In this document: piece by piece, positions 9,483-64,000 of the stretch | How the letters are laid out: the number at the start of each line of letters is the position of its first letter | Numbering within the stretch: the first letter of the stretch is position 1 | Origin: Noviluteimonas gilva | GTDB lineage: Bacteria > Pseudomonadota > Gammaproteobacteria > Xanthomonadales > Xanthomonadaceae | DNA: 64,000 bases | Assembly (NCBI RefSeq): GCF_009740395.1 | Contig: NZ_WOXT01000001.1 | Location: forward strand, 248,001-312,000 | Direction of reading: 5' to 3' | The notes under the pieces: generated by a model | Databases searched by the model: none | Told to the model about the DNA's origin: nothing | Seen by the model: the letters and a program-made list of their open reading frames with translations, nothing else | Position numbers and translations under genes: made by a program

Positions 9483-11000
9483 ATGTTCGTCCTGTGCCCC
9501 CATTGCCAGTTCCTGGTCACCCTCGATCCGCGCAGCGGTCGGGCGCCGGAGGTGTGTCCGAGTTGCGGGAAGCCGCTTGACGCGCAATCGCAGGAAACGG
9601 TTGAAAGCACCGACGTGCCGGTGGAGGCGACACCGGAACCGGAAGCGCCCGTCGCACCGCCCGAGCCGACGCCCGAGCCAACGCCCGAGCCACCGCCGGC
9701 GGAACCGGACGCCGAACCCGCGCCGCAGCCAGCCCAACTCAACGCGGACGCCGTCATCGCGCTGATGGCGCAAAAACCGCCACGCAAGGCGCGCGCCGAA
9801 AAGCCGGTCGAGAAGCCTGCGAAACGCAAGCGCGAACCCGCACCCAAGCCTGCGCCCGTCGTCAAACCGCCGGCGCCGCCGAAGGTCGAACGCCCCGCGG
9901 GTCCGCCGATGTCTGTGCGCATTGCGGCGTGGTGGGCGTCGGTGAAGCCCAAGGCGAAGCCGAAGGTCGAAAAACCCGTCGCCGACAAGAAGCCCGCGGC
10001 GGACGAAACGAAGAAGAGAGCCACCGTCAGGCCCGTGTCCTCGTTGCGCGAGCGCGCCGCGAAGCGTGCGGAAGACGCGCGAGTCGCACCCGCCGTGCAA
10101 GTGGAAGCGCCCGTTGTCGAGACGCAGGTCGTGGTGTCGCCTGTCGTCGATGCACCTGTGGTTGAGACGCCTGTCGTTGAGACGCCTGTCGTTGAGACGC
10201 CTGTCGTCGCAACGCCAATCGAACCCGCGCGCGTCGAAACCGCGCCCATCGAATTCATTCCGCTCGCGCTGACGCCCGTCGAAGCGGCACTCGCGGTCGA
10301 AGCCTTGCGCACATCGACGCCGCCTGCCGTCGAACCTGCGCCTGCACCCGAATCCGAACCCGATCTCGTCGCCGCACCCCCCATCGCGGTCGAAGACACC
10401 CCCCCATCACGCGAACCCGCGTTACCGCCCGTCGCCCCTCAGCCACCCACGCTCTCCCCGGCACCAAAACCGCGCGTGGCCACCGCCGCGCCGAGCTTCG
10501 CGCGCACGCGCGCAGGCTTGCGCGGTGCGATGCCGACGCGTTGGCAGTCGTTCGCGACCATCGGCGCGTTGTCGGTGTTGCTCGTCCTGCAATTGTTGCT
10601 CGCGCAACGCGACGCGCTCGCGCAAACCGCGCGCTGGCGCCCGACGATGTCGGCGCTCTGCGCCGTCGTGCGATGCACGTTGCCTGCGTGGCGCGACCCT
10701 GAAGCCTTCACGATGCTCAGCCGCGACGTGCGCCCGCATCCGAGCGCGGCGGGGACGTTGCAGATCGATGCGAACTTCCGCAACGACGCGCGCTGGGCGC
10801 AGGCCTGGCCGCGCCTGGTGGTGAGCCTGTCGGACATCGACGGACGCGTGCTCGGTACGCGTGCGTTCACCGCGCGCGAGTACCTGGGCGACGCCGCGGC
10901 GACGCAAGCGACCCTCGCACCCGGCCAGACCGCGGCGATCAGCCTGTCCGTCGTCGAGCCCGCGCCGGGTGTCGTGGCCTTCAGTTTCGAATTCCGCTGA
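9483..11000 (+). CDS. DUF3426 zinc-ribbon membrane protein with long Pro/Glu linker
   Basis: 505 residues from ATG 9483. The N-terminus is an MJ0042-type zinc finger with two Cys pairs (CPHC and CPSC). A low-complexity linker of about 310 residues, rich in P, E, A and V, follows. It contains a Lys-rich portion and the repeat VVETP. One membrane helix (FATIGALSVLLVLQLLLA, about residue 355) precedes the DUF3426 domain, a periplasmic all-beta domain ending in PGVVAFSFEFR. The function of the family is unknown. It lies between prmA and fis, the usual place in this family of bacteria. The linker is long for the family and may vary in length by repeat slippage. Confidence 0.85.
   Translation: MFVLCPHCQFLVTLDPRSGRAPEVCPSCGKPLDAQSQETVESTDVPVEATPEPEAPVAPPEPTPEPTPEPPPAEPDAEPAPQPAQLNADAVIALMAQKPPRKARAEKPVEKPAKRKREPAPKPAPVVKPPAPPKVERPAGPPMSVRIAAWWASVKPKAKPKVEKPVADKKPAADETKKRATVRPVSSLRERAAKRAEDARVAPAVQVEAPVVETQVVVSPVVDAPVVETPVVETPVVETPVVATPIEPARVETAPIEFIPLALTPVEAALAVEALRTSTPPAVEPAPAPESEPDLVAAPPIAVEDTPPSREPALPPVAPQPPTLSPAPKPRVATAAPSFARTRAGLRGAMPTRWQSFATIGALSVLLVLQLLLAQRDALAQTARWRPTMSALCAVVRCTLPAWRDPEAFTMLSRDVRPHPSAAGTLQIDANFRNDARWAQAWPRLVVSLSDIDGRVLGTRAFTAREYLGDAAATQATLAPGQTAAISLSVVEPAPGVVAFSFEFR
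10155..10210 (+). repeat. 15-base tandem repeat inside the DUF3426 gene
   Basis: The unit gttgagacgcctgtc occurs three times head to tail, with further diverged units on both sides. It encodes the repeated residues VVETP. Being a multiple of three bases, gain or loss of units changes linker length without breaking the frame. Confidence 0.8.
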
Positions 11001-32939: not shown

Positions 32940-34325
32940 ATGGATGCCTCCCAGTCGTCCGAGAAGACGACGAGCGACCCCAATACGATCCGCGCGCCGA
33001 CGCTGCTCATCGTCGACGACGATGTCGGCTTCGTGCACGCGACAGCGGAAGTCGCGCGACTGGAGGGATTCGAAATCACCATCGCGAGCGAACTCGGCCA
33101 GGCGCTGCATCGCATGCGCCAGCACGATTACGATCTCGCGCTCGTCGACCTCGACCTGCCCGACGGCAGTGGGCTGCAGTTGCTCGAGGACATCGATGTG
33201 CAACGCACGCACGCCGTGATCGTCACCGGTCGCCCCACGGTCGAGTCGGCGCTGCAATCGCTGCGCAGTTCGGTGGTCGACTACCTGGTCAAACCCATCT
33301 GTCCCGATCGCTTGCGCGAACTGCTGCATGCCGCCGCCACCGATCGTCGCATCGCACCGCCGGTTGCGCCGACGCCGAACCACGGCATGGTCGGTGCATC
33401 GCGCGGGTTCCAGACGGTGTGCCGGATGATCGAGAAAGTCGCGCCGACCGACGCGGCCGTCCTCGTGCACGGCGAAAGCGGCGTCGGCAAGGAACTCGTC
33501 GCGCGCGCGATCCATGAAGCGAGCGGACGCACGGGACCGTTCGTTGCGGTGAACTGCGGCGCGGTCGCAGGCGAGTTGCTTTCGAGTCAATTGTTCGGCC
33601 ACGAGAAAGGCAGCTTCACCGGCGCGTTCTCGCGGCACCTGGGGTTCCTCGAACAAGCGGCGCACGGCACCCTGTTCCTCGACGAGATCACCGAAATGGC
33701 GCCGGTGCTGCAGACGCACCTGCTGCGCGTGCTCGACTTCGGTTGCTATCGCCGCGTCGGCGGACATGCGGACCTGCCGGTGGAAGTGCGCATCGTGTCG
33801 GCCACCAATCGCGATCCGCGCGAGGCCGTCGCCAGCGGTCGCTTGCGCGAAGACCTCTATTACCGCCTCAGCGGTTTCGACATTCCCGTCCCGCCGCTGC
33901 GCGAACGCGACGGCGATGCGTTGCGCCTGGCCAATGCGTTCCTCGCCGAACTCAACACGCGCGGCGGCACGCGCCATGCCTTCGCGCCCGACACGATCGA
34001 CGCGATCGCCCGCGCGGCCTGGCCCGGCAACGTGCGCGAATTGCGCAACGCGGTGCAGCGCAGCTACATCCTCGCCGAGGACGGTGTGGTGCGCATCGCG
34101 CCGCAATCGTTCCCGAAACCGGCGGACGAGTCCTCGCACACGATCACCTTCACCATCGGCACGTCGTTTGAGGAAATGGAACGACGGATCCTGCGCAAGA
34201 CGCTGCAGCATTACGGCAACAACCGCAGGCGTGCGGCGGCGGCGCTGGGGATCACGGCGCGGACGATTCGGAATCGATTGGCGCGCGAACGCGGTGGCGC
34301 GGCGACGGATGACGACGAGGGTTGA
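32940..34325 (+). CDS. NtrC-family sigma-54-dependent response regulator
   Basis: 461 residues from ATG 32940; upstream in-frame codons look non-coding. Domains: receiver 15-130 with phospho-acceptor Asp70 (VDLDLPD) and Lys in VKP; AAA+ domain about 150-380 with Walker A GESGVGKE at about 178, the sigma-54 contact loop GSFTGA at 224-229, and Walker B GTLFLDEI; C-terminal Fis-type HTH (HYGNNRRRAAAALGITARTIRNRL). It activates sigma-54 promoters once phosphorylated. No kinase is adjacent in the same operon, but hybrid kinases follow at 36.1 and 41.6 kb. The start is divergent from DUF4142. Confidence 0.95.
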   Translation: MDASQSSEKTTSDPNTIRAPTLLIVDDDVGFVHATAEVARLEGFEITIASELGQALHRMRQHDYDLALVDLDLPDGSGLQLLEDIDVQRTHAVIVTGRPTVESALQSLRSSVVDYLVKPICPDRLRELLHAAATDRRIAPPVAPTPNHGMVGASRGFQTVCRMIEKVAPTDAAVLVHGESGVGKELVARAIHEASGRTGPFVAVNCGAVAGELLSSQLFGHEKGSFTGAFSRHLGFLEQAAHGTLFLDEITEMAPVLQTHLLRVLDFGCYRRVGGHADLPVEVRIVSATNRDPREAVASGRLREDLYYRLSGFDIPVPPLRERDGDALRLANAFLAELNTRGGTRHAFAPDTIDAIARAAWPGNVRELRNAVQRSYILAEDGVVRIAPQSFPKPADESSHTITFTIGTSFEEMERRILRKTLQHYGNNRRRAAAALGITARTIRNRLARERGGAATDDDEG

Positions 34326-53779: not shown

Positions 53780-54262
53780 ATGTTCACCGCCTCCACGCTG
53801 TCCGGCAGCAAGCCGGAGCAATACGCCCAGCTCGTTGAACAGGCGCGCGCCCTGCTCCACGGCGAGCCCGACCGCATCGCGAACGCGGCCAACCTTTCGG
53901 CGCTGGTCTACAACGCGTTGCCGCAGCTGAACTGGGCGGGCTTCTACTTCTTCGACGGCACCGAACTCGTGGTCGGCCCCTTCCAGGGCCTGCCCGCGTG
54001 CGTGCGCATCCCGCTCGACAAGGGCGTGTGCGGCGCGGCCGCGAGCACGCGCAAGACGCAGCTGGTCGAGGACGTGCATGCGTTCCCGGGCCACATCGCG
54101 TGCGATGCGGCGTCGCGTTCGGAAATCGTCGTGCCCCTGGTGCGCAACGGCGCGCTCGTCGGCGTTCTCGACCTCGATAGTCCGGTTCCCGCGCGCTTCG
54201 ACGTTGAAGATCAGATGGGGATCGAAGCGATTGCCCGCCTGTTCGAGGAGTCCTTGGCTTGA
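53780..54262 (+). CDS. msrC: Free methionine-(R)-sulfoxide reductase (GAF type)
   Basis: 160 residues. fRMsr enzymes reduce free methionine-R-sulfoxide. GAF fold with NWAGFYFFDGTELVVGPFQGLPACVRIP and GVCG and FPGHIACDAASRSEIVVPL. Cys74, Cys84 and Cys108 have the same spacing (10 and 24 residues) as Cys84, Cys94 and Cys118 of the E. coli enzyme, so the catalytic set is complete. A -10-like tagact lies 16 bases before the ATG. The stop overlaps the next gene start. Confidence 0.94.
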   Translation: MFTASTLSGSKPEQYAQLVEQARALLHGEPDRIANAANLSALVYNALPQLNWAGFYFFDGTELVVGPFQGLPACVRIPLDKGVCGAAASTRKTQLVEDVHAFPGHIACDAASRSEIVVPLVRNGALVGVLDLDSPVPARFDVEDQMGIEAIARLFEESLA

Positions 54263-55028: not shown

Positions 55029-56915
55029 ATGTCGCGCAATACCCTGTCCGCCGCCGTCGCGGTGGCGCTGAGCTTTACGTCCTCGTTCGCGCTTGCGCAA
55101 TCGCGGGACGCCGAACAACTCGACGAAGTCCTCGTCACCGGCACGCGCACCGCGGTGACCGTCGATGACTCGCTGTCTGCGGTCGAAGTCATCGACCGCG
55201 CCGAAATCGAACGCACGCAAGCGCAATCCGTGCAGGACGTGCTGCGCGGCCGCGCGGGCATCAACCTCGTCAACCAGGGCGGCGCGGGCAAGCTCACCAC
55301 CTTGTTCCTGCGCGGCACCGAATCGGATCAAACGCTGATCCTCATCGACGGCGTGCGCGTGGGCTCGTCCACCTCGGGCCTCACCGCGCTGCAGGATTTG
55401 CCGGTGGAATTGATCGAACGCATCGAGATCGTGCGCGGCCCGCGTTCGAGCCTCTACGGCTCCGACGCGATCGGCGGCGTCATCCAGATCTTCACCCGCC
55501 AGCCGAGAACCGGCGGCGTGCGTCCGCGATTCAAGCTCGGCGCCGGCAGCAACGATTCGCGCGAATTGAGCGCGGGCGTCGACTTCGGATTCGATCGCGC
55601 GTGGTTCGGGGCCGATTACAGCCATCAGTCGACGGAAGGGTACAACTCGTGCACGGGCGCGACGACGCCGGAATTCGCGGGCTGCTTCATGGACAACCCG
55701 GATCCGGATGACGACGGTTACGAAAGCAACGCGGTGTCGGTGCGCGGTGGCGTGCGACCGGTCGATGGGCTGACCATCGACCTGCATGCGCTGCGCAACG
55801 AAGGGCGCAACGAATTCGATGCCGATCCGATGTTCGGGCTGGGCGATGTGTCGGATACGACGCAGCAAGTGGTCGGCGGCAAGGCGCGTTGGGAACTCGG
55901 CCGCACGACGTTGACGCTCTCGGGCGGCAGCAACCTGGATCGTTCGCTGCAGACGCGCGACGGCGCGTTCGCCGATTTCTTCGAGAGCCATCGCGACAGT
56001 GCGTCGCTGCAGGCGGACTTCAAGGTCGCCGACAAGCAACTCGCGACAGTCGGTTACGACTGGTCGCGCGACAAGGCGTTCGCGGAAGACAACTTCGGCA
56101 CGCTGGTGTCGCCGGAAGCCGGCGCGCTGCGACAGAATCGTGCGGTGTTCGCGCAGTACCAGGGCGCGTTCGGCGCGCATGACGTTCAGGCGAGCGTTCG
56201 CCGTGACGACAACGAACAGTTCGGCGGCCACACGACGGGCAGCCTCGCATGGGGCATGGACCTCGGCGCGGGCTTCCGCATCACCGCGAACGCGGGTTCC
56301 GCGTTCAAGGCGCCGACGTTCAACGAGTTGTACTTCCCGTTCTACGGCAATCCGGACCTGATGCCCGAAGAGTCGGACACGTTCGAACTCGGCATCGGCC
56401 AGCGCCGCGAAACGTGGCACTGGGACGTGCACGCCTACCAGACGCGCGTCGACGATCTGATCGTGTACGACTCCAACATTTTCACGGCGAACAACCTGGA
56501 AGAAGCCCGCATCCGCGGCGGTGAATTGACCGGCGGATTCTCGCTCGATGGTTGGAACGTCACGGGCGCTGCGAGCTACGTCGATCCGCGCAACCGCAGC
56601 AACGGCACCAACTTCGACAAGGTGTTGCCGCGTCGCGCGCGTTCGAGCGGGCGCGTGGAGGTCGATCGCGCGTTCGGCGATTTCTCGGTCGGTGCAACGT
56701 GGGTGGCGGAAGGCCGTCGCTTCGAGAACGTGGCCAATTCGCTGGAGCTCGGCGGGTATTCGACGTTCGATCTGCGCGCGCAGTGGTCGATCACCGACAC
56801 CTGGACCGTGCAGGCGCGGGCGAGCAACGTGTTCGACCACGCCTACGAAACCGCGGCGTACTACCCGCAGCCGGGGCGCGAGTTCGGCGTCACGGTGCGC
56901 TATTCGGCGAAGTGA
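55029..56915 (+). CDS. btuB: TonB-dependent vitamin B12 receptor BtuB
   Basis: 628 residues. Signal peptide to about residue 24 (SFTSSFALAQ); TonB box VLVTGTRT near residue 37; plug domain with IDGVRVGSS and ELIERIEIVRGPRSSLYGSDAIGGVI; then a 22-strand beta barrel ending in VTVRYSAK with a C-terminal lysine instead of the common Phe. Acidic loops DPDPDDDGYE may bind calcium and cobalamin. The riboswitch upstream makes the substrate assignment firm. The stop abuts the stop of the convergent fapF-like gene with no intervening base. Confidence 0.95.
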   Translation: MSRNTLSAAVAVALSFTSSFALAQSRDAEQLDEVLVTGTRTAVTVDDSLSAVEVIDRAEIERTQAQSVQDVLRGRAGINLVNQGGAGKLTTLFLRGTESDQTLILIDGVRVGSSTSGLTALQDLPVELIERIEIVRGPRSSLYGSDAIGGVIQIFTRQPRTGGVRPRFKLGAGSNDSRELSAGVDFGFDRAWFGADYSHQSTEGYNSCTGATTPEFAGCFMDNPDPDDDGYESNAVSVRGGVRPVDGLTIDLHALRNEGRNEFDADPMFGLGDVSDTTQQVVGGKARWELGRTTLTLSGGSNLDRSLQTRDGAFADFFESHRDSASLQADFKVADKQLATVGYDWSRDKAFAEDNFGTLVSPEAGALRQNRAVFAQYQGAFGAHDVQASVRRDDNEQFGGHTTGSLAWGMDLGAGFRITANAGSAFKAPTFNELYFPFYGNPDLMPEESDTFELGIGQRRETWHWDVHAYQTRVDDLIVYDSNIFTANNLEEARIRGGELTGGFSLDGWNVTGAASYVDPRNRSNGTNFDKVLPRRARSSGRVEVDRAFGDFSVGATWVAEGRRFENVANSLELGGYSTFDLRAQWSITDTWTVQARASNVFDHAYETAAYYPQPGREFGVTVRYSAK

Positions 56916-58217
56916 TCAACGCACGGAGAACGGCGTCCGCACGGTGAGCGTGACGTCGGGCGTGTCGCGCGTGGTCCCCACACCGAGCGACACGTTCAAC
57001 ATGCGCGCATCGCTGAAGCGATAGCTCGCACCGAGCAGCAGTGTGCCTGTCACCAGGCGCACTGCCCCCGGCAGATCCTGGCCGTTCTGCTGCGTCTTGC
57101 CGATGAAGTTCTGTTCGTAGCCCAGGCTGATCGAGGCTTTCTCGTTCAACGCCAGGCCGATGCCGACGTTGAGGCCGAAGACATCGCCAACGTCGATTTC
57201 CCCGAGGTTTTCCTTCGCGCCGCCCAGCACCTGCCGCTGCACGTTGTCGCGCGGGAAGTTGTGCAGATAGCTGAGATTGCCGAAGAACACCGCCGGGTCC
57301 GACGCGTAGAGCCAGGTCACGCCGGCCTGCAATGCGTTGAAGCCCGTGCCGGTCGGCAGTTCGAGTGGCAGGCCTGTCCCGGTCGCATTGCCCAGGCATC
57401 GCGTCACGCAATCGGCGGGCACTTCGAAAGGATCCTTGCCGGTGCGGCTCTTGTAGCGCAGCCAGCCGACGTAGAAGGGTTTGTCGGGACCGGAATGGGA
57501 AAACTGATAGCGCGCGGTGAGTTCGACATCGCCGATGCCCTTGCCGTCGGCGTTGAACACGCGGTCGACCGCGGTACCGGTGAAGATCTCGCGACTGACG
57601 GTGTCGGTGTTCGTGTAGACGTAGGGCACGCGCGCTTCGAGTTCGAAGCCTTTCGTCACGCCCCAGCGCGCGGCGATGGCGGCGGTGGCGCTGGTGATCT
57701 TCACTTGGCGCACGTCGATCAGGCCGATGAGTAACGCGGGAATCACCGAGTAGCCGACGAGCGCGACGCGGTCGTTCGCCCAATAGCCGACCTGCAGCGA
57801 CGGTTCGAACACGAACGAGCCGGCAGGCGTCAGCACGCTCGGCTGGTCGAAGATTTGCGCGACTTGCGGTGGTGTTTCGGGTTCCGGCGGTGCCTGGCCG
57901 ACCGGGGTTTGCCGCTGCTGCGTTTGCGCTTGTTGCGGTGTGGGTTGCGCAGCCGGGCGCGCCGCGGGATTGGCGACCACGCCGCGCGCGCGCATGTCAT
58001 CCAGTCCGACTGCCTGCTTGAGTTCGGCGATCTCGAACTCGCGCTCGGTCAACGTCTTTTCGAGTGTGTCGAGCCGCTGCGATTGCGACTGCACCTGCGC
58101 TTCGAGACGCTTGATGCGGGCCTCGGTACTTTCGGTTTGTGCATACGCCACGTTCGCGACGATCGCTGCTGCAACGGCGAGCGCCAGCCGCCCAAGCTTC
58201 CGTGCGCACCGGTCCAT
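56916..58217 (-). CDS. fapF: FapF-like outer-membrane pore
   Basis: 433 residues from ATG 58217, after gggagg. Signal peptide to about residue 26; coiled coil about 32-70 (IKRLEAQVQSQSQRLDTLEK); Pro/Gln-rich linker about 80-115; beta barrel 125-433 with alternating strands and a C-terminal R after SV. FapF of Pseudomonas is a trimeric barrel with the same N-terminal coiled coil and linker plug that exports amyloid subunits. Length and layout agree. Position last in the operon also agrees with fapABCDEF. A different coiled-coil transporter barrel is the alternative. Confidence 0.75.
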   Translation of the reverse strand: MDRCARKLGRLALAVAAAIVANVAYAQTESTEARIKRLEAQVQSQSQRLDTLEKTLTEREFEIAELKQAVGLDDMRARGVVANPAARPAAQPTPQQAQTQQRQTPVGQAPPEPETPPQVAQIFDQPSVLTPAGSFVFEPSLQVGYWANDRVALVGYSVIPALLIGLIDVRQVKITSATAAIAARWGVTKGFELEARVPYVYTNTDTVSREIFTGTAVDRVFNADGKGIGDVELTARYQFSHSGPDKPFYVGWLRYKSRTGKDPFEVPADCVTRCLGNATGTGLPLELPTGTGFNALQAGVTWLYASDPAVFFGNLSYLHNFPRDNVQRQVLGGAKENLGEIDVGDVFGLNVGIGLALNEKASISLGYEQNFIGKTQQNGQDLPGAVRLVTGTLLLGASYRFSDARMLNVSLGVGTTRDTPDVTLTVRTPFSVR

Positions 58218-58235
58218 GCGGCCTCCCTGTCGTGA

Positions 58236-58742
58236 TCAGCGGGTGGAGGAAAGTTGCAGCAACGCGTCCTGCAACGCGCCGTTCGCATTGAGCGTCTGGT
58301 ATTCGCCGAGCGAGCGGACGCCGACCGACAGCGCCGTCATGCCCGTGATGTGCTGGTTGTCCAGCGAGTTCTGCACGATGGTCAGCGTGCCGGCCGCACC
58401 GGGCGACACCACTGCCGTGTTGCCCGCCCCATTGCGGACGACCAGGGGCGCGATCGCTTTCGACAGCGCGTGCGCCTGGTCGGTGGTGATGCGTGCGAAG
58501 TCCGGCACGTAGGCGCGTGTTTCCACGACGAGTGCGCCGTTGATGTAGACGGCGCGTTCGATGCCGAAGGAAATGTTCGCGCCGCCGGGAATGTCGAAGC
58601 CGCCGCGCAACGCTGCCAGGCGCGCCGGCGCCACGGCCTGCCATTCGGTCGGAAGATTGCGCACATCGGGTGCGACGTCCTGCGCGATCGCCGGTGCGGC
58701 CGCGCAAGCGAGCATGGCGGCGAGTGTCAGGCGCTTACACAT
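58236..58742 (-). CDS. fapE: FapE-like secreted protein
   Basis: 168 residues with signal peptide to residue 20 (LACAAAPAIAQ). The C-terminal part contains the Fap-type motif GTLTIVQNSLDNQHITGMTALSV, also seen in the two upstream subunits as VIQNSG...LIQ.GM. In Pseudomonas FapE is a minor extracellular component of the amyloid. Its start overlaps the fapD stop by 8 bases. GGFDIPGGANISFGIERAVYI follows the family. Confidence rests on both motif and operon context. Confidence 0.7.
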   Translation of the reverse strand: MCKRLTLAAMLACAAAPAIAQDVAPDVRNLPTEWQAVAPARLAALRGGFDIPGGANISFGIERAVYINGALVVETRAYVPDFARITTDQAHALSKAIAPLVVRNGAGNTAVVSPGAAGTLTIVQNSLDNQHITGMTALSVGVRSLGEYQTLNANGALQDALLQLSSTR

Positions 58743-59430
58743 CGCCCGGCCCTCGGCGCGGCATGACCACGTGCTGCAAGCCGTCGCGTTGGATGGAGAG
58801 TTCGAGCGGGCCGGCCGGCGCGATGCGCCAGTCGCGCGGATTGTTGAACTGCGCCAGTTCGCGATGGTTGTGCACGACGAACAACACGCGCGATTCCCAC
58901 AACGTCTCGAAGCGGTCGCGCCGGATCGTGCGCAGCCCGGCCGCGGGATCGCCGACGAGCACGCGATTGCCGCGCATGCCCTTCACCACGACGAAATGCC
59001 GATAGCCGCGATCGTTGAGCAACACGATCGCCGGCACGCCTTCTTCCGCGAGCTTGTCGATCGGCAGCGAAAAGCCATCCGCGCGGAAGCCGTGCGACTG
59101 GAGGTAACGCCGCATGTCGAGCAGCGAGAACCCCAGCTTGCGGATGCGCGCCTGGTCGCCGTGCGCGTACATCTCGGCGAAGACATCTTCTTCGCGCACG
59201 GGGCGTCCGAAGTGGTGCGTCAGCAGCGTCGCGACCGCGGCCGATCCGCAACTGAAGTCGTAGCGTTGCCGCACGACGGTGGCGAAACGCGCTTCCTTCA
59301 GGCTGGTCACGCGCACCTTGTAGTCGCCGCTGCCGTCGTTCAACGCCAGCGAGCCCGCATGCGCGCAGCCGACGCCGAGCGCGAGCGCAAGCGCCGCGAT
59401 TTCGTGCCAGCGCGCGCGCCGCGTTGTCAT
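58735..59430 (-). CDS. fapD: FapD-like C39-family peptidase
   Basis: 231 residues with signal peptide (to about 26). The C39 catalytic set is complete: Cys61 in YDFSCGSAAVATLL, His145 in YRHFVVVKG and Asp161 in VGDPAAGL. FapD processes amyloid subunits or is needed for their export; C39 peptidases without an ABC domain are typical of Fap and related systems. The start overlaps the previous stop (ATGA) and its stop overlaps the fapE start, so translation is tightly coupled. Confidence 0.85.
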   Translation of the reverse strand: MTTRRARWHEIAALALALGVGCAHAGSLALNDGSGDYKVRVTSLKEARFATVVRQRYDFSCGSAAVATLLTHHFGRPVREEDVFAEMYAHGDQARIRKLGFSLLDMRRYLQSHGFRADGFSLPIDKLAEEGVPAIVLLNDRGYRHFVVVKGMRGNRVLVGDPAAGLRTIRRDRFETLWESRVLFVVHNHRELAQFNNPRDWRIAPAGPLELSIQRDGLQHVVMPRRGPGDV

Positions 59431-59816
59431 GGCGGCGAGGCGCTGGTCATGTCGATGAACTGCACGCTGACCGCCATGCCGTTCTGGATGAGCACGTTCG
59501 AGCCGGAGTTCTGGATCACCGTGGCGATGCCCGCGTTGTTCGCGAAGCTGCCGCCGTCGATCAGGTTCTGGCCCGAGACCAGGTTGTTCGCGGTGTTGTC
59601 GCTGACCTCGCCGTCGAGATCGATGTCGATGTCCACCGTGTTGACGAGCGTGCCGTCGCCGCCGCGTTGGGCGTCGAGCGCCGCGGCTTCGACGGGATGC
59701 GCGAATGTCGATTGCGCATCGACGGGCGCCTGTTGCGCGAACGCCGTCGGTGCGATCAGGGCGAACACCACCGCCGCGCGCGGCAGGCGTGTTCGCGCCT
59801 TGCGTTGAGTGTGCAT
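59427..59816 (-). CDS. FapB-like minor amyloid subunit (putative nucleator)
   Basis: 129 residues from ATG 59816, after aaggag. Signal peptide to about residue 27 (FALIAPTAFAQ). The mature part has VDIDIDLDGEVSDNTANNLVSGQNLIDGGSFANNAGIATVIQNSG with SNVLIQNGMAVSV. Asn/Gly/Gln-rich strands and the closing motif resemble FapB/FapC and curlin-type repeats. The small size and position before fapD suggest a nucleator or minor subunit. The assignment is inferred from composition, signal peptide and operon. Confidence 0.65.
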   Translation of the reverse strand: MHTQRKARTRLPRAAVVFALIAPTAFAQQAPVDAQSTFAHPVEAAALDAQRGGDGTLVNTVDIDIDLDGEVSDNTANNLVSGQNLIDGGSFANNAGIATVIQNSGSNVLIQNGMAVSVQFIDMTSASPP

Positions 59817-59878
59817 GGCGACTCCTTCGACCTGGCGCGCGCCTCCCTGCGCGCGCCTGGACAGATCGACGCTTTGCG

Positions 59879-60967
59879 TTACGGTGCGCCGACTTCGAGG
59901 TTGGCCTGCACGGTCATGCCCTGCTGGATCAGCGAGGCAGGTCCGCTGTTCTGCGCGGCCATCATCACGCCCGCGGCCGACTGGCCGACGCTGTCCATCG
60001 AGTTCGACGAATCGAAGGTGCCGGCATCGACCGTGATCGATCCGCCTGCACCACCGTCGCCACCCGCGGCTGCGTTGCCGTCGCCGCCGGCGCCGTCGCC
60101 ACCGGTGCCGTCACCACCGGAACCACCGGCGCCGCCGGTCGCGGCGACATCGCCGCTATTGCCGCCGGTTGCGCTGGAGTCGCCCGTGGTCGCGGTCGCC
60201 GAGGAATCGGCGTTGCCGCCGGTGCCCGAGCCGTCGCCGCCGGTTGCATCGGCTGTTCCGCTTCCGCCGGTGCCCGTGCCCGAAGCTTCGCCGCCCGTGC
60301 CCGTGCCGGTGCCGTCGCCACCGGTATCGGTGGTGTCGCCATCGCCGTTGGTGCTGGCGACCGAGCCGCCCGCGCCTGTGCCGGTGCCCGCGGCAACGCC
60401 GCCCGCACCCGTGCCCGGTGCACCCGCGCCTGTTGCTGCGCCGGTCCCGCCGGCGCCTGTGCCAGCGCCACCCGCCGCAGTGGATGTGCCGGTGGCACCA
60501 CTGCTGTCGGCGACGCCATCGCCGCCCGGGCCACTTGTCGCGGCCGCACTGCCACCGGCCGCACCTGCGCCACCGACGCCCGCGCCACCGACGCCTGCGC
60601 CGCCTGTTGCCGAACCACCGGCACCACCGGCGCCGGAGTTGTTGTTGCCCGCGTTGCTCGCGTTGTTGCCCCACGGCCCGATCGCGTTGCCGGTCACCGT
60701 GCCGTTGAGAGTCGTGTTCGCCACGACGCTGCTGGTGTTGAAAGAGTTGGAGAAGGTTGCGGTGGAGGTGCCGCCGTTGGTCGCGGCGGAGCTGCCGGGC
60801 GCGCCGGCCGTCGCATCACCGACGTTGTTGCGGTTGTCTCCTGTCGAGTTGTTGGCGTTGTTGTCGCTTGTGTTGTTGTCGCCTGTCACGTTGACGTCCT
60901 GTGCGTACGCCTGGCCGGCAAGGCCGCAGGCGAGCAACAGGAACGAGGCGAGGACTGTCTTGCGCAT
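59879..60967 (-). CDS. Low-complexity secreted protein, candidate Fap-like fibre subunit
   Basis: 362 residues from ATG 60967, after gggag. Signal peptide to about residue 22. The mature N-terminus is Asn/Asp-rich (VNVTGDNNTSDNNANNS), then VVANTTLNGTVTGNAIGPW, which resembles Fap repeat phrases. Residues about 105-300 are almost pure G, A, T, S and D, with GGAGVGGAG and GDGTGG-type repeats and no Cys. The C-terminal part has DSVGQSAAGVMMAAQNSGPASLIQQGMTVQ, matching the downstream subunit. It is the first gene of the five-gene unit, in the place of the fibre gene. No FapA-like gene is seen. Known FapC fibres have Gln/Asn repeats rather than this Gly-rich spacer. Confidence 0.65.
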   Translation of the reverse strand: MRKTVLASFLLLACGLAGQAYAQDVNVTGDNNTSDNNANNSTGDNRNNVGDATAGAPGSSAATNGGTSTATFSNSFNTSSVVANTTLNGTVTGNAIGPWGNNASNAGNNNSGAGGAGGSATGGAGVGGAGVGGAGAAGGSAAATSGPGGDGVADSSGATGTSTAAGGAGTGAGGTGAATGAGAPGTGAGGVAAGTGTGAGGSVASTNGDGDTTDTGGDGTGTGTGGEASGTGTGGSGTADATGGDGSGTGGNADSSATATTGDSSATGGNSGDVAATGGAGGSGGDGTGGDGAGGDGNAAAGGDGGAGGSITVDAGTFDSSNSMDSVGQSAAGVMMAAQNSGPASLIQQGMTVQANLEVGAP

Positions 60968-61034: not shown

Positions 61035-61054
61035 CTGATCGAGCGCACGATCAG
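61035..61054. promoter_or_regulatory. Perfect inverted repeat near the Fap-like operon start
   Basis: ctgatcg-agcgca-cgatcag, with matching gc bases just outside. It lies about 70 bases upstream of the fibre-gene start and could be an operator or a leader hairpin. Confidence 0.45.
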
Positions 61055-61083
61055 TGCCAGACATGCGGTCCGTGATGTCTTGT

Positions 61084-61498: not shown

Positions 61499-63229
61499 TC
61501 ATTCCACCGTCGCGCGCAACTGCACGCCGGAGAACGCCTTCGCACCATGCACGGCGACGTGGAGTTCGCCCGCCGCCGGCGCATCGATCACGACGATGCC
61601 GTTGTTGCCCGGGCGCACCGAACTGACATCGTGCGATGCGGGCGATGCATGGCCGCCACGACGCACATACAGATCCGCATCTCCCGTGCCGCCGTAGCTG
61701 CGCAGTGTCAGGCGCGTCGCGCCATCCGGCACGTCGACGACGTAATGGCGTGACTGCGCCTGCTTCGCATAGATGTGCATCGCTGGCCCGTACAGGCCCA
61801 GCACCATCGGGACAGGCAGCGGCACGTGCCCGAGAATGGCAGCCTCGACCGCCACGCCCGCATCGACGATGCCCGTGCCGATGGGCTTGTCGATGGCCAC
61901 CGGGAACATGCGCGTCGTCTCGGCGAGCATCGTTGCGATCGTCGCTGGCGCATGGGGAACGGGCGCGGCGCCCTGCATCATCGCCACGACCGCGGCGACG
62001 TGCGGCGCGGCCATCGACGTGCCGATATTCGCCGCGAACGCCGGCGCTTCGGGCCCTTCCATGCCGAAGTTGAACGTCGACCAGATGAAGCCGTGCGGCA
62101 TCCATTCCGACCCGGTGGACTTGTCGTCGCGATAGAGGCCGCCGCCGGGCGCGGACACGGTGACACCGGCGCCATGGTTCGAATAGAACACGCGCTTGCC
62201 CGTGAATCCGTTCGCGCCGACGACGATGACGTTGCTGCAATTGGCGGGCGCGAAGTCCATCACGTCCTGGTTGCTGTTGCCGGCTGCAACGACAACGGTC
62301 GTGCCGCGCGACACCGCGCCATCGATCGCGTCCTGCATGTACGGTTCGCACACCGACCGCGCGCCGAGACTGATGTTGAGGACTTCCGCGGGCGTTGCGT
62401 TGTCCGGCACGCCGGCGACGGTGCCACCCGACGCCCACGTGACCGCATCGGCGACGTCCGACATGTACCCGCCGCAGTGGCCGAGCACGCGCACGGGCAA
62501 CAACTTCGCGCGATACGCCATGCCGGCCATGCCGAGTCCGTTGTTGGTGACCGCGGCGATCGTCCCCGCGACATGCGTGCCGTGCCAACTGCTGGGACCG
62601 GCGGGACACTGGCCCAGGTAGGGCGGCACGTGTGTCCAGTCGCCCGTATCCCAACCGCCCGGGCTTCGCGTGTCGTCTTCGCGCCCGGAGATGAAGGCAT
62701 CGGTGATGAAATCGTAGCCCGCGCCTGCGACGACGTTCGCATCGAGATCCGGATGCGCGGTGATGCCGGTGTCCAGCACGCCCACGACGATGCCCTCGCC
62801 CATCGCGCCCTGCGCCCAGGCGCCTGGCGCGTTCACGCCGCCGAGCGGATCGTACAGATCGGCCTGGACGCGGTTGTGCCACTGGCCGCCGACGTCGACG
62901 TAGTCCTCGTACCACGGATCGTCGACGACGGTGGTGTGCCGTACCAACGGATCCCGGCGCGCGTATTGCACGTCCGGATGCGCGGCCAGGCGCGCGATCA
63001 CTGCGTCGGCATCACCGCCCTCGACACGCAAGACCTGCGCGCCGTTGGCGAGCGTAGACACGGCGCGCGATTCGGGCGCGAGCGTGCGCAGTGCGATCGC
63101 AGGTTGCACGCGTGCCTGCGTGTGTTCGTGGAATTTCACGACGACGCGGCCTGCGGGATCGAAGGCGAGTGCGGTGCCGCTGATGCAGAAGCAGGCCAGC
63201 GCGATCGCGAGGCGAAGTTGTGTTTGCAT
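61499..63229 (-). CDS. Secreted subtilisin-family (S8) serine protease
   Basis: 576 residues. Signal peptide to about 22; inhibitor-like propeptide to about 120; catalytic domain with Asp153 (VLDTGIT), His216 (SSWHGTHVAGT), oxyanion Asn318 (AAGNSN) and Ser405 (NIGTSMAAPH). A C-terminal pre-peptidase-type beta domain follows, about 480-576 (GDADLYVRRGG). All four catalytic residues are present. Secreted S8 proteases with this layout are common in Lysobacter and Xanthomonas. Its position beside the amyloid operon could be functional (subunit or host processing) or incidental. The gene 3' end faces the palindrome-rich region. Confidence 0.93.
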   Translation of the reverse strand: MQTQLRLAIALACFCISGTALAFDPAGRVVVKFHEHTQARVQPAIALRTLAPESRAVSTLANGAQVLRVEGGDADAVIARLAAHPDVQYARRDPLVRHTTVVDDPWYEDYVDVGGQWHNRVQADLYDPLGGVNAPGAWAQGAMGEGIVVGVLDTGITAHPDLDANVVAGAGYDFITDAFISGREDDTRSPGGWDTGDWTHVPPYLGQCPAGPSSWHGTHVAGTIAAVTNNGLGMAGMAYRAKLLPVRVLGHCGGYMSDVADAVTWASGGTVAGVPDNATPAEVLNISLGARSVCEPYMQDAIDGAVSRGTTVVVAAGNSNQDVMDFAPANCSNVIVVGANGFTGKRVFYSNHGAGVTVSAPGGGLYRDDKSTGSEWMPHGFIWSTFNFGMEGPEAPAFAANIGTSMAAPHVAAVVAMMQGAAPVPHAPATIATMLAETTRMFPVAIDKPIGTGIVDAGVAVEAAILGHVPLPVPMVLGLYGPAMHIYAKQAQSRHYVVDVPDGATRLTLRSYGGTGDADLYVRRGGHASPASHDVSSVRPGNNGIVVIDAPAAGELHVAVHGAKAFSGVQLRATVE

Positions 63230-63241
63230 GTGTCGTCTCCT

Positions 63242-64000
63242 TTAGAGGTCGATGCCGAAACCGACGCCCGCCGAGCGTTCGTCGCTGCTGAATGCACCGC
63301 CGAGGCTGAGCGAGATGCGATCGGAAACATTGCGTGCGTAGCCGAAGGACAACGCGCTCTCTCCGTTCTGCCAGCCCGCGCCCGCGGCGAGCCGCCCGCG
63401 ATCGCTGCGGCCCTGCGCGGCGTTGATCGCCATGCTGCTCATCGCGGCGGACATCGCGCCGATGCGGTCGATGCGGTCGTCCTGCCGATTCACGCGATCG
63501 CGGAGATCGACGAACTGATCGGACAAGGCCTGCACGCGATGGTCGGTGTAGGCGCGCGCTTCGTTGAGCGTGGAGGCTTGCGCGGCCTGCATCTGCCGCA
63601 GGTTCACCGCGTCGGTTGCGGCGACCGCATCGTCGACGTGCACGACGCGACGTTCCGATCCCGCCGACCCCACGGAAACCGTGCCCGCCTCGTGTGCGAC
63701 CGAGCCCTGGCCCAATGCGGCCGCATCATTCACCGCGCTGCTGCCCGAACCCAATGCCGTGCCTTCGCCCGTGCCCATGCCGGGGACCGTGGGCGCGGCC
63801 GTGGGCAGTTGGCCGAATGCCGCTTCCAACGCATCCATGCGCGAGTGCAATCCGCCGAGGCCCGAACCGATCGAGCCATCCAGTCCCGCGATCGCCTCGT
63901 CGAGTTGCGCCTTGATCACGACATCGTTGGCTTCGGTGCCCGCCGCGACGTTGACGATCTGCCGGAAGTTCGGGCCGTGCTCGCCACCGTCTTCGTCCCA
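63242..64000 (-). CDS. Trimeric autotransporter adhesin, C-terminal part (runs off the window)
   Basis: At least 252 residues; the reading frame stays open to the window edge, so the start lies beyond 64000. The visible part has a YadA-type neck motif (RQIVNVAAGTEANDVVIK), a coiled coil (SRMDALEAAFGQ), a second head/neck repeat (VHVDDAVAATDAVNLRQM), a stalk (QALSDQFVDLRDRVNRQDDRIDRIG) and the 70-residue membrane anchor: MSSMAINAAQG then AAGAGWQNGESALSFGYAR and a C-terminal SAGVGFGIDL. This forms a trimeric outer-membrane adhesin. It lies 12 bases upstream of the protease gene, so the two may be cotranscribed. Confidence 0.9.
   Translation of the reverse strand, partial: WDEDGGEHGPNFRQIVNVAAGTEANDVVIKAQLDEAIAGLDGSIGSGLGGLHSRMDALEAAFGQLPTAAPTVPGMGTGEGTALGSGSSAVNDAAALGQGSVAHEAGTVSVGSAGSERRVVHVDDAVAATDAVNLRQMQAAQASTLNEARAYTDHRVQALSDQFVDLRDRVNRQDDRIDRIGAMSAAMSSMAINAAQGRSDRGRLAAGAGWQNGESALSFGYARNVSDRISLSLGGAFSSDERSAGVGFGIDL

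Follow-up and report, generated by a model that had tools for sequence, protein, structure and literature searches.

The window analysed here, a 64,000-nucleotide stretch of the Noviluteimonas gilva genome (contig NZ_WOXT01000001.1, positions 248,001 to 312,000), carries on its minus strand five closely packed genes that include relatives of the functional-amyloid (Fap) machinery of Pseudomonas. In the order of transcription they encode a large secreted subunit (fib1), a small secreted subunit (fib2), a C39 cysteine peptidase (D), a FapE-like secreted protein (E) and an outer-membrane barrel (F; Table 1). The first-pass annotation, made from the letters of the window alone, had read them as a Fap operon without FapA in which the fibre gene precedes the gene for the small subunit. 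All five reading frames were recovered in this order, and the spacings were reproduced exactly, with a 62-base gap between fib1 and fib2, a 4-base ATGA overlap between fib2 and D, an 8-base overlap between D and E, and an 18-base gap between E and F. Judged by eye, all five proteins begin with Sec-like signal peptides ending in A-x-A.

Table 1. Features of the five-gene operon, in window coordinates
Feature	Position	Strand	Remarks
Sigma-54-type -24/-12 promoter-like site TGGCACTGATCGTGCG	61044..61059	minus	92 bases ahead of fib1 start
fib1, large secreted subunit	59879..60967	minus	362 aa; no Pfam or NCBIfam match
fib2, small secreted subunit	59427..59816	minus	129 aa; no Pfam or NCBIfam match
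Predicted C39 leader core LDAQRGG of fib2	59658..59678	minus	predicted cut after residue 53
D, C39 cysteine peptidase, FapD relative	58735..59430	minus	231 aa; Q55, C61, H145, D161
E, FapE-like secreted protein, C39-type leader	58236..58742	minus	168 aa; no Pfam or NCBIfam match
Predicted C39 leader core LAALRGG of E	58599..58619	minus	predicted cut after residue 48
F, FapF-type outer-membrane barrel, N-terminal coiled-coil-like helix	56916..58217	minus	433 aa
Predicted long helix (coiled coil) of F, residues 31-70	58008..58127	minus	structure model
LDDMRARG in disordered linker of F	57981..58004	minus	possible third, weaker peptidase site

Judged by profile, sequence and structure model, F is a relative of FapF. 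Its match to the NCBIfam FapF model is full-length (E-value 7.7e-46, 156.7 bits; cut-off 700), and a sequence comparison also matched it to the FapF crystal chains (E-value 3.8e-26). The AlphaFold2 model of F (predicted local distance difference test score 78) shows a FapF-type fold with a predicted helix at residues 31-70, then a linker modelled at low confidence, and the barrel from residue 135 onward, in agreement with the barrel and N-terminal coiled coil proposed at first. In a Foldseek search with this model, ranks 1 to 18 were all FapF chains. The COG4313 channel (4rl8 chains) followed at ranks 19 and 20, and the reading of F as an unrelated transporter was rejected on this ranking. Residues E111 and R157 of FapF (numbering after PMC5557850) correspond, as read from the alignment, to E138 and R184 of F, which are invariant in 29 sequences. 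The second PTG motif of FapF corresponds to P288-T289-G290, invariant or nearly so, and the first to RTG.

Its profile matches likewise make D a FapD relative, with intact active-site residues. D matched the NCBIfam FapD model with an E-value of 2.6e-42 (144.6 bits; cut-off 330) and the NCBIfam FilB model with an E-value of 2.8e-35 (122 bits; cut-off 475). Gln55, Cys61, His145 and Asp161 are invariant in 13 of 13 aligned peptidases of the window type, which bears out the C39 peptidase with Cys61, His145 and Asp161 intact noted from the letters. At an E-value of 1e-5, the single match to the FapD model in the window genome is the window's own D.

The three small secreted proteins are more remote: fib1, fib2 and E matched no Pfam or NCBIfam family, including NCBIfam FapB, FapC and FapE, so that searches against the Fap families upheld the first-pass annotation for F and D and gave nothing for these three. 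Profile-profile comparison (hhalign) aligned E with canonical FapE at 90% (E-value 1.6e-6), which makes E a remote FapE relative; the FapE-like label holds in this sense, but not as a match to NCBIfam FapE. E also aligned with fib2 (97%, E-value 6.2e-11; 97 of the 120 rows were used for the E profile, those longer than 230 residues being left out). As controls, three comparisons involving D stayed below 1%, and FapB against FapC gave 98.5%. The combination of a barrel from an unrelated transporter family with small proteins devoid of Fap homology was not found. The subunits fib1 and fib2 share a glutamine- and asparagine-rich (QN-rich) module of Fap-like kind: the broad fib1 unit aligned with the broad fib2 unit at 95% (E-value 3.1e-8), and the tandem units of the fib1 homologues in loci L108 and L115 aligned with the canonical FapB/FapC repeats at 90.5% (E-value 1.4e-6; best of 50 column shuffles 1.1e-3). 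The window's fib1 is tied to the Fap repeats only through such relatives, because its own unit falls short of significance where theirs does not. Many E proteins carry a V/I-Q-x-G-x-G-N stretch, which is changed in the window's E, and the E relative of L108 (3624-4142) has a weak RHIM match (PF12721, E-value 0.011, below cut-off).

The two subunits differ in design. A signal peptide (by eye), a C39-type leader and one QN module make up fib2, while in fib1 a signal peptide is followed by a D/N/S-rich stretch, a putative first QN half-module, a Gly-rich insert of 195 residues (40% Gly; 95% G/A/S/T/D/N) and a C-terminal second half. Among 26 fib1 measured within the same family the insert ranges from 25 to 310 residues and appears to split the module in two. 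No such split is seen in nine fib1 relatives from other families, whose C-terminal module (about 75 residues) is contiguous, and the modules of Croceicoccus and Photobacterium run through without a long Gly-rich insert. A Gly-rich stretch ahead of the C-terminal unit recurs outside the family in the fib1 of L110, L152, L164, L172, L174, L186 and L193, Burkholderiales included. The division of the fib1 module into halves is suggestive only: its N-terminal block aligned with the contiguous modules at 36.7% (E-value 3.6e-4) and with fib2 at 1.9%, which is not significant. The linkers of FapC are highly variable while its repeats are conserved (PMC3792158), and the fib1 insert would be an extreme case of this theme.

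The operon is conserved well beyond the window. A search with E gave matches in 30 of 149 genomes of the same family, and the order fib1-fib2-D-E-F was kept in all 30 loci, the window being one of them, with fib1 clipped by the end of the stretch or contig in L037 and L042. In a wider scan of named genomes, for which the best 80 of 578 confirmed stretches were used and whose contigs are partly shared with the family set, fib2-D-E stood in order in 80 of 80 loci and were preceded by fib1 in 79, the remaining one (L198) starting inside the cluster. F was present in 78, on the same strand in 61 and on the opposite strand in 17 (10 upstream, 7 downstream). These best 80 came from Lysobacter, Pseudoxanthomonas, Luteimonas, Luteibacter, Cupriavidus, Burkholderia, Paraburkholderia, Oxalobacteraceae and others, and the nearest peptidases among them, at 90% and 87%, belong to Lysobacter dokdonensis and L. 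lactosilyticus, respectively. Six loci from a plasmid collection were also profiled: those of C. metallidurans, Polymorphobacter, Croceicoccus, Vibrio and Photobacterium are of the window type, and that of Aeromonas caviae is canonical. The fib1 profile had no match in three of the five window-type plasmid loci, where fib1 was recognised by eye; the Vibrio plasmid (L223) and Photobacterium (L214) loci match the window-type E, fib2, D and F profiles. In gene tables the Polymorphobacter genes are labelled hypothetical, hypothetical, C39 family peptidase, hypothetical and hypothetical, and the Croceicoccus barrel 'transporter'. The branch was found in Alpha-, Beta- and Gammaproteobacteria, and given its recurrence within the family and beyond, the five-gene order is more than chance.

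Behind its signal peptide, E carries a leader whose commonest form is W-x-x-V-x-x-x-x-L-x-x-[LM]-R-G-G-F. Residues L42, R46, G47 and G48 are invariant in 29 of 29 sequences and belong to the 13 invariant columns of an alignment with a mean identity of 36%. Because the family set and the wider scan hold some identical contigs, duplicates were removed by the last 100 residues before counting, and hits below the set thresholds were left out; among the distinct sequences, L...RGG occurs in 106 of 108 E, 96 of 109 fib2, 0 of 106 fib1, 1 of 108 D and 17 of 102 F. With positions numbered backwards from the final Gly, hydrophobic residues prevail at -4 (0.88), -12 (0.94) and -15 (0.82) in E, and at -4 (0.71), -12 (0.84) and -16 (0.76) in fib2. 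Double-glycine leaders of C39 substrates are spaced as in LSxxELxxIxGG, and the predicted leaders of E and fib2, L at -7 included, fit this spacing. A looser motif, L...R[GA]xG, lies in the F linker in 81 of 122 F sequences (a redundant set). The linker may be a third substrate of the peptidase, in agreement with a suspicion in print that the FapF linker is cut.

In sequence, the leader form is fuller in canonical FapE than in the window branch. All 25 canonical FapE proteins (13 above the NCBI FapE cut-off and 12 from canonical loci) match [LIM]...RG[RKGSA], in 23 distinct segments. Among these segments, D at -10 and E at -8 are each found in 18, L/V/I at -12 in 22 and L/M/I at -4 in 21; 16 segments end in R, 6 in K and 1 in A, and Tyr or Phe comes next in 22. 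From this we infer that the leader is the recognition element of FapD, with a predicted cut after RG(G/R/K), and that the window branch adds a second substrate, fib2. The catalytic Cys of FapD was reported to be required for FapC secretion, and among Fap proteins complete N-terminal processing was reported for FapE only (PMC5557850). The target of FapD was stated to be unsettled and Fap proteins were said to lack canonical C39 sequences (PMC5557850; PMC6173800), while according to a 2025 review FapD is thought to process FapE and FapF (PMC12822426). Comparison of the branch with Fap exposes this shared leader and predicts the exact bond cut by FapD, a question left open in print, which is thereby reduced to a one-peptide assay. 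A literature search, with most subscription papers outside its reach, found no paper on this branch or on the FapE leader.

Leader-like stretches were also seen elsewhere. A third kind of C39-plus-FapF cluster occurs in other Gammaproteobacteria (L121, 1274-4271; L122, 284-3253; L123), and in proteins encoded upstream in L121 the signal peptide is followed by stretches such as LSDNQLDQMTAG and LNEQQLDSIYAGG, so that C39-type leaders may be a general feature of FapF-type exporters. In the canonical fap locus L093, an extra small secreted protein encoded upstream (9749-10168) resembles fib2 in its short QN unit and its leader-like LNDDQLGQVRGLF.

Expression of the operon is probably sigma-54 dependent, to judge from the promoter-like site ahead of fib1. 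The window's own site alone has a shuffle p of 0.02. Among the 28 of 30 family loci with enough upstream DNA, the best site lies 75-95 bases ahead of fib1 in 22, where 2.1 would be expected (kinship makes the binomial figure optimistic), and 20 of these 22 score 12 or more. The same search before the other genes stayed at chance level (fib2 2/30, D 1/30, E 3/29, F 2/30). In the wider set, whose gene starts are less refined, the shuffle p was 0.05 or lower in only 56 of 113 loci. The sigma-54 activator domain has six matches in the genome at 1e-10, one of them in the window at 33387-33884, and none of the six stands out as the partner of the operon. Genes for NtrC-type activators lie near the window-type loci L107, L119 and L120 and near the canonical loci L092, L093 and L100, which fits shared sigma-54 control of both kinds.

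The operon is separate from canonical Fap. FapF-model matches were found in 53 of the 149 same-family genomes and fall into two groups, 34 at 321-389 bits and 30, including that of the window, at 125-162 bits, with none between; 11 genomes hold one of each, and the 30 low-score genomes are the same 30 that were matched by the E search. The name canonical for the high-score set rests on score; among the 11 double genomes the high-scoring locus was read in G010 only, where genes in the fapA, fapB and fapC places precede D, E and F, and the names FapB and FapC in canonical loci were tested by NCBIfam for L091 only. That the window stays below the FapF and FapD cut-offs is not decisive for FapF, because canonical loci (307-456 bits) fall below that cut-off too. 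Canonical profiles built here matched, at an E-value of 1e-3, 19 (fapB), 0 (fapC) and 5 (fapE) of 124 window-type loci, and the window was not among the matches. Across the class, a FapF match at 1e-10 was seen in 39 of 369 genomes, and 33 stretches were taken: 15 high-scoring ones (L091-L105) had no match to window-type E, fib1 or fib2 save a weak one in L103 (E-value 0.0032), 15 with low FapF scores (L106-L120) had a window-type E match in 12, and the remaining three (L121-L123) are of the third kind. In a tree of 77 peptidases, with Fil-type rows chosen by hidden Markov model and every second window-type row kept (55 of 108), one branch (98/89) sets off the 55 window-type rows, another (100/98) the 11 canonical rows, and the Fil-type rows fall outside both; long-row warnings remain for this tree, and its midpoint root is weak (79/61).

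We consider it probable that the five genes form a Fap-related operon for the secretion and assembly of fibres that belongs to this separate branch. All five proteins would enter the periplasm by Sec, as their signal peptides suggest. D would then remove the short leader from E and fib2 after R-G-G, which is proposed because the leader is conserved across E, fib2 and canonical FapE. Mature E, mature fib2 and fib1 would leave through F, whose homology to FapF is established and whose transport function and trimer state are presumed from it. Outside the cell, fib1 and fib2 would assemble into surface fibres through their common QN-rich module, with E perhaps serving as anchor or starter by analogy with FapE, and sigma-54 would drive expression of the operon.

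Several observations weigh against this reading. The E98-K401 pin of FapF is Q125-R427 in F, and the plug helix of FapF was not seen in the F model, although the plug-region sequence aligns. Among the distinct fib2 sequences, 13 of 109 deviate from RGG, and in the position profile of the leader the search pattern itself fixed L at -7 and R-G at -3/-2, so that their conservation is shown only by the 29-row alignment and the distinct-sequence counts. The kinship of the subunits with Fap repeats is faint in several comparisons: whole fib2 aligned with FapB at 63.5% (E-value 6.8e-5) over 35 columns, which is weak, fib2 with the FapB ends at 3.1%, fib2 with FapC at 2.6%, and the broad fib2 unit with the canonical repeats at 34% (E-value 4.3e-4; best shuffle 3.9e-3). 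The fib1 ends gave 0.15% and 0.5% with the FapB or FapC ends, which is not significant, the broad fib1 unit gave 4.9% with the canonical repeats (E-value 0.0081, a level that shuffles reach at 0.005), and E showed no likeness to the repeat units (0.2% and 0.1%). The window's fib1 carries one module instead of three repeats, and the structure model of E (score 59) is too poor for use. Finally, leader cleavage, export through F, the formation of fibres and of amyloid, and the role of E are steps that we infer.

Three other explanations were weighed. A canonical Fap operon from which fapA was lost and in which the two subunit genes changed places would keep relatives of FapD, FapE and FapF in the same D-E-F order, as is observed, and loss of fapA is the commonest published deviation (PMC3792158; PMC6173800), so that by itself it would not be new. 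The FapA-positioned protein of L098 indeed found no credible match in the window genome (best E-value 0.11; distant FapA forms lay outside this search). Against such a simple loss, however, the peptidase clades lie apart, the FapF-model scores are bimodal with both kinds in 11 genomes, and the canonical fapB, fapC and fapE profiles match few window-type loci and not the window. This explanation is already disfavoured, and we regard it as very unlikely. The first-pass reading of a Fap operon without FapA therefore holds for the Fap-related machinery and the missing FapA match, but not for membership in canonical Fap.

That the operon is instead a double-glycine exporter like the Neisseria nap island, releasing E and fib2 as soluble bacteriocin-like or signalling peptides with no fibre, seems unlikely to us. 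A C39 peptidase, a FapF-related channel and GG leaders are indeed the parts list of Nap (PMC11798529), and the predicted mature fib2, with 76 residues and 7.7 kDa, lies within the Nap range of less than 10 kDa (PMC11798529). The predicted mature E of 12.4 kDa does not, and the QN-rich module of fib1 and fib2, which is tandem in some relatives and then related to the Fap repeats, is hard to place in such an exporter, as is a fib1 that has no leader and yet precedes fib2 throughout the wider scan, apart from the locus that starts inside the cluster. The length and composition of the fib1 insert, its variation within the family and the seven Gly-rich fib1 outside it would also suit a Gly-rich surface coat or adhesin, exported through F without amyloid, in which the insert does the work and E and fib2 have no role but to anchor it. 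The nine relatives of other families, Croceicoccus and Photobacterium do without a long insert, and because the module runs on in them, the module is the common part of fib1; we think such a coat improbable. The fibre operon of a separate branch remains our preferred reading.

More broadly, and with the case for it about evenly balanced, we tentatively suggest that the operon represents a second branch of C39/FapF fibre machines, one that is old and widespread and coexists with true Fap. In this branch a single periplasmic peptidase would mature two subunits by way of a leader of double-glycine type that follows the Sec signal, the R/K-ending leader of canonical FapE would mark the target of FapD, and the variable Gly-rich insert that splits the module in xanthomonads and Burkholderiales would form, on an amyloid core, an elastic or adhesive loop that can be tuned. 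Since loss of fapA is common in print, homologues of fapD and fapF were found together in five more phyla (PMC6173800) and deviant Fap systems of Vibrio and Acidithiobacillus have been published (PMC3792158), parts of the branch may already count as Fap in print. A recent account pictures Fap as evolutionarily 'fixed' (PMC12822426); a probable parallel fibre system, mostly missed by the canonical subunit profiles built here, contrasts with this picture.

Like Pseudomonas Fap, the operon combines a FapD-type C39 peptidase, a FapE-type protein and a FapF-type barrel with a long N-terminal helix, and it shares QN-rich subunits, tight packing and the C39-type leader on FapE. Unlike it, the order is large subunit, small subunit, D, E, F rather than A-B-C-D-E-F or B-C-D-E-F, two proteins bear leaders, the leader ends in RGG rather than the RG(R/K) of FapE, the peptidases form their own clade, and no credible FapA match was found in the window genome. 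FapC and FapB almost universally have three imperfect repeats each (PMC12822426), whereas the window subunits hold one module each. The Fap systems of Vibrio and Acidithiobacillus deviate from full fapABCDEF, deletion of fapA and a separate position of fapF being given as the commonest deviations, and Vibrio FapB has one repeat and Vibrio FapC 16 (PMC3792158). The window operon resembles such Vibrio systems in wanting the full layout and in the single repeat of FapB (PMC3792158), but the window-type L223 has no 16-repeat array and its D is in two pieces; the published Vibrio systems were compared here by description. The Fil 'putative pilus system' (NCBIfam FilB and FilC) likewise combines a C39 peptidase with a FapF-like barrel. 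F matched FilC with an E-value of 2.9e-9 and 36.7 bits (cut-off 630), so that neither this cut-off nor that of FilB (475) was reached, and FilB-type rows lie outside the window-type clade. The Neisseria nap island (NapP, NapF, NapA-C) shares a C39 peptidase, a FapF-related channel and GG-motif substrates; its substrates, compared here by description only, are unlike ours small cationic autolysis peptides (PMC11798529).

The neighbours of the operon were judged by eye. Upstream lie putative genes for an S8 serine protease (61499-63229) and for the C-terminal end of a trimeric autotransporter (63242-63919). A TonB-dependent receptor-like gene (55029-56915) is convergent with the operon and ends one base from the end of its last gene. 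A tRNA-Ala was called by ARAGORN at 53822-53918 within a coding-looking frame and is possibly a false call.

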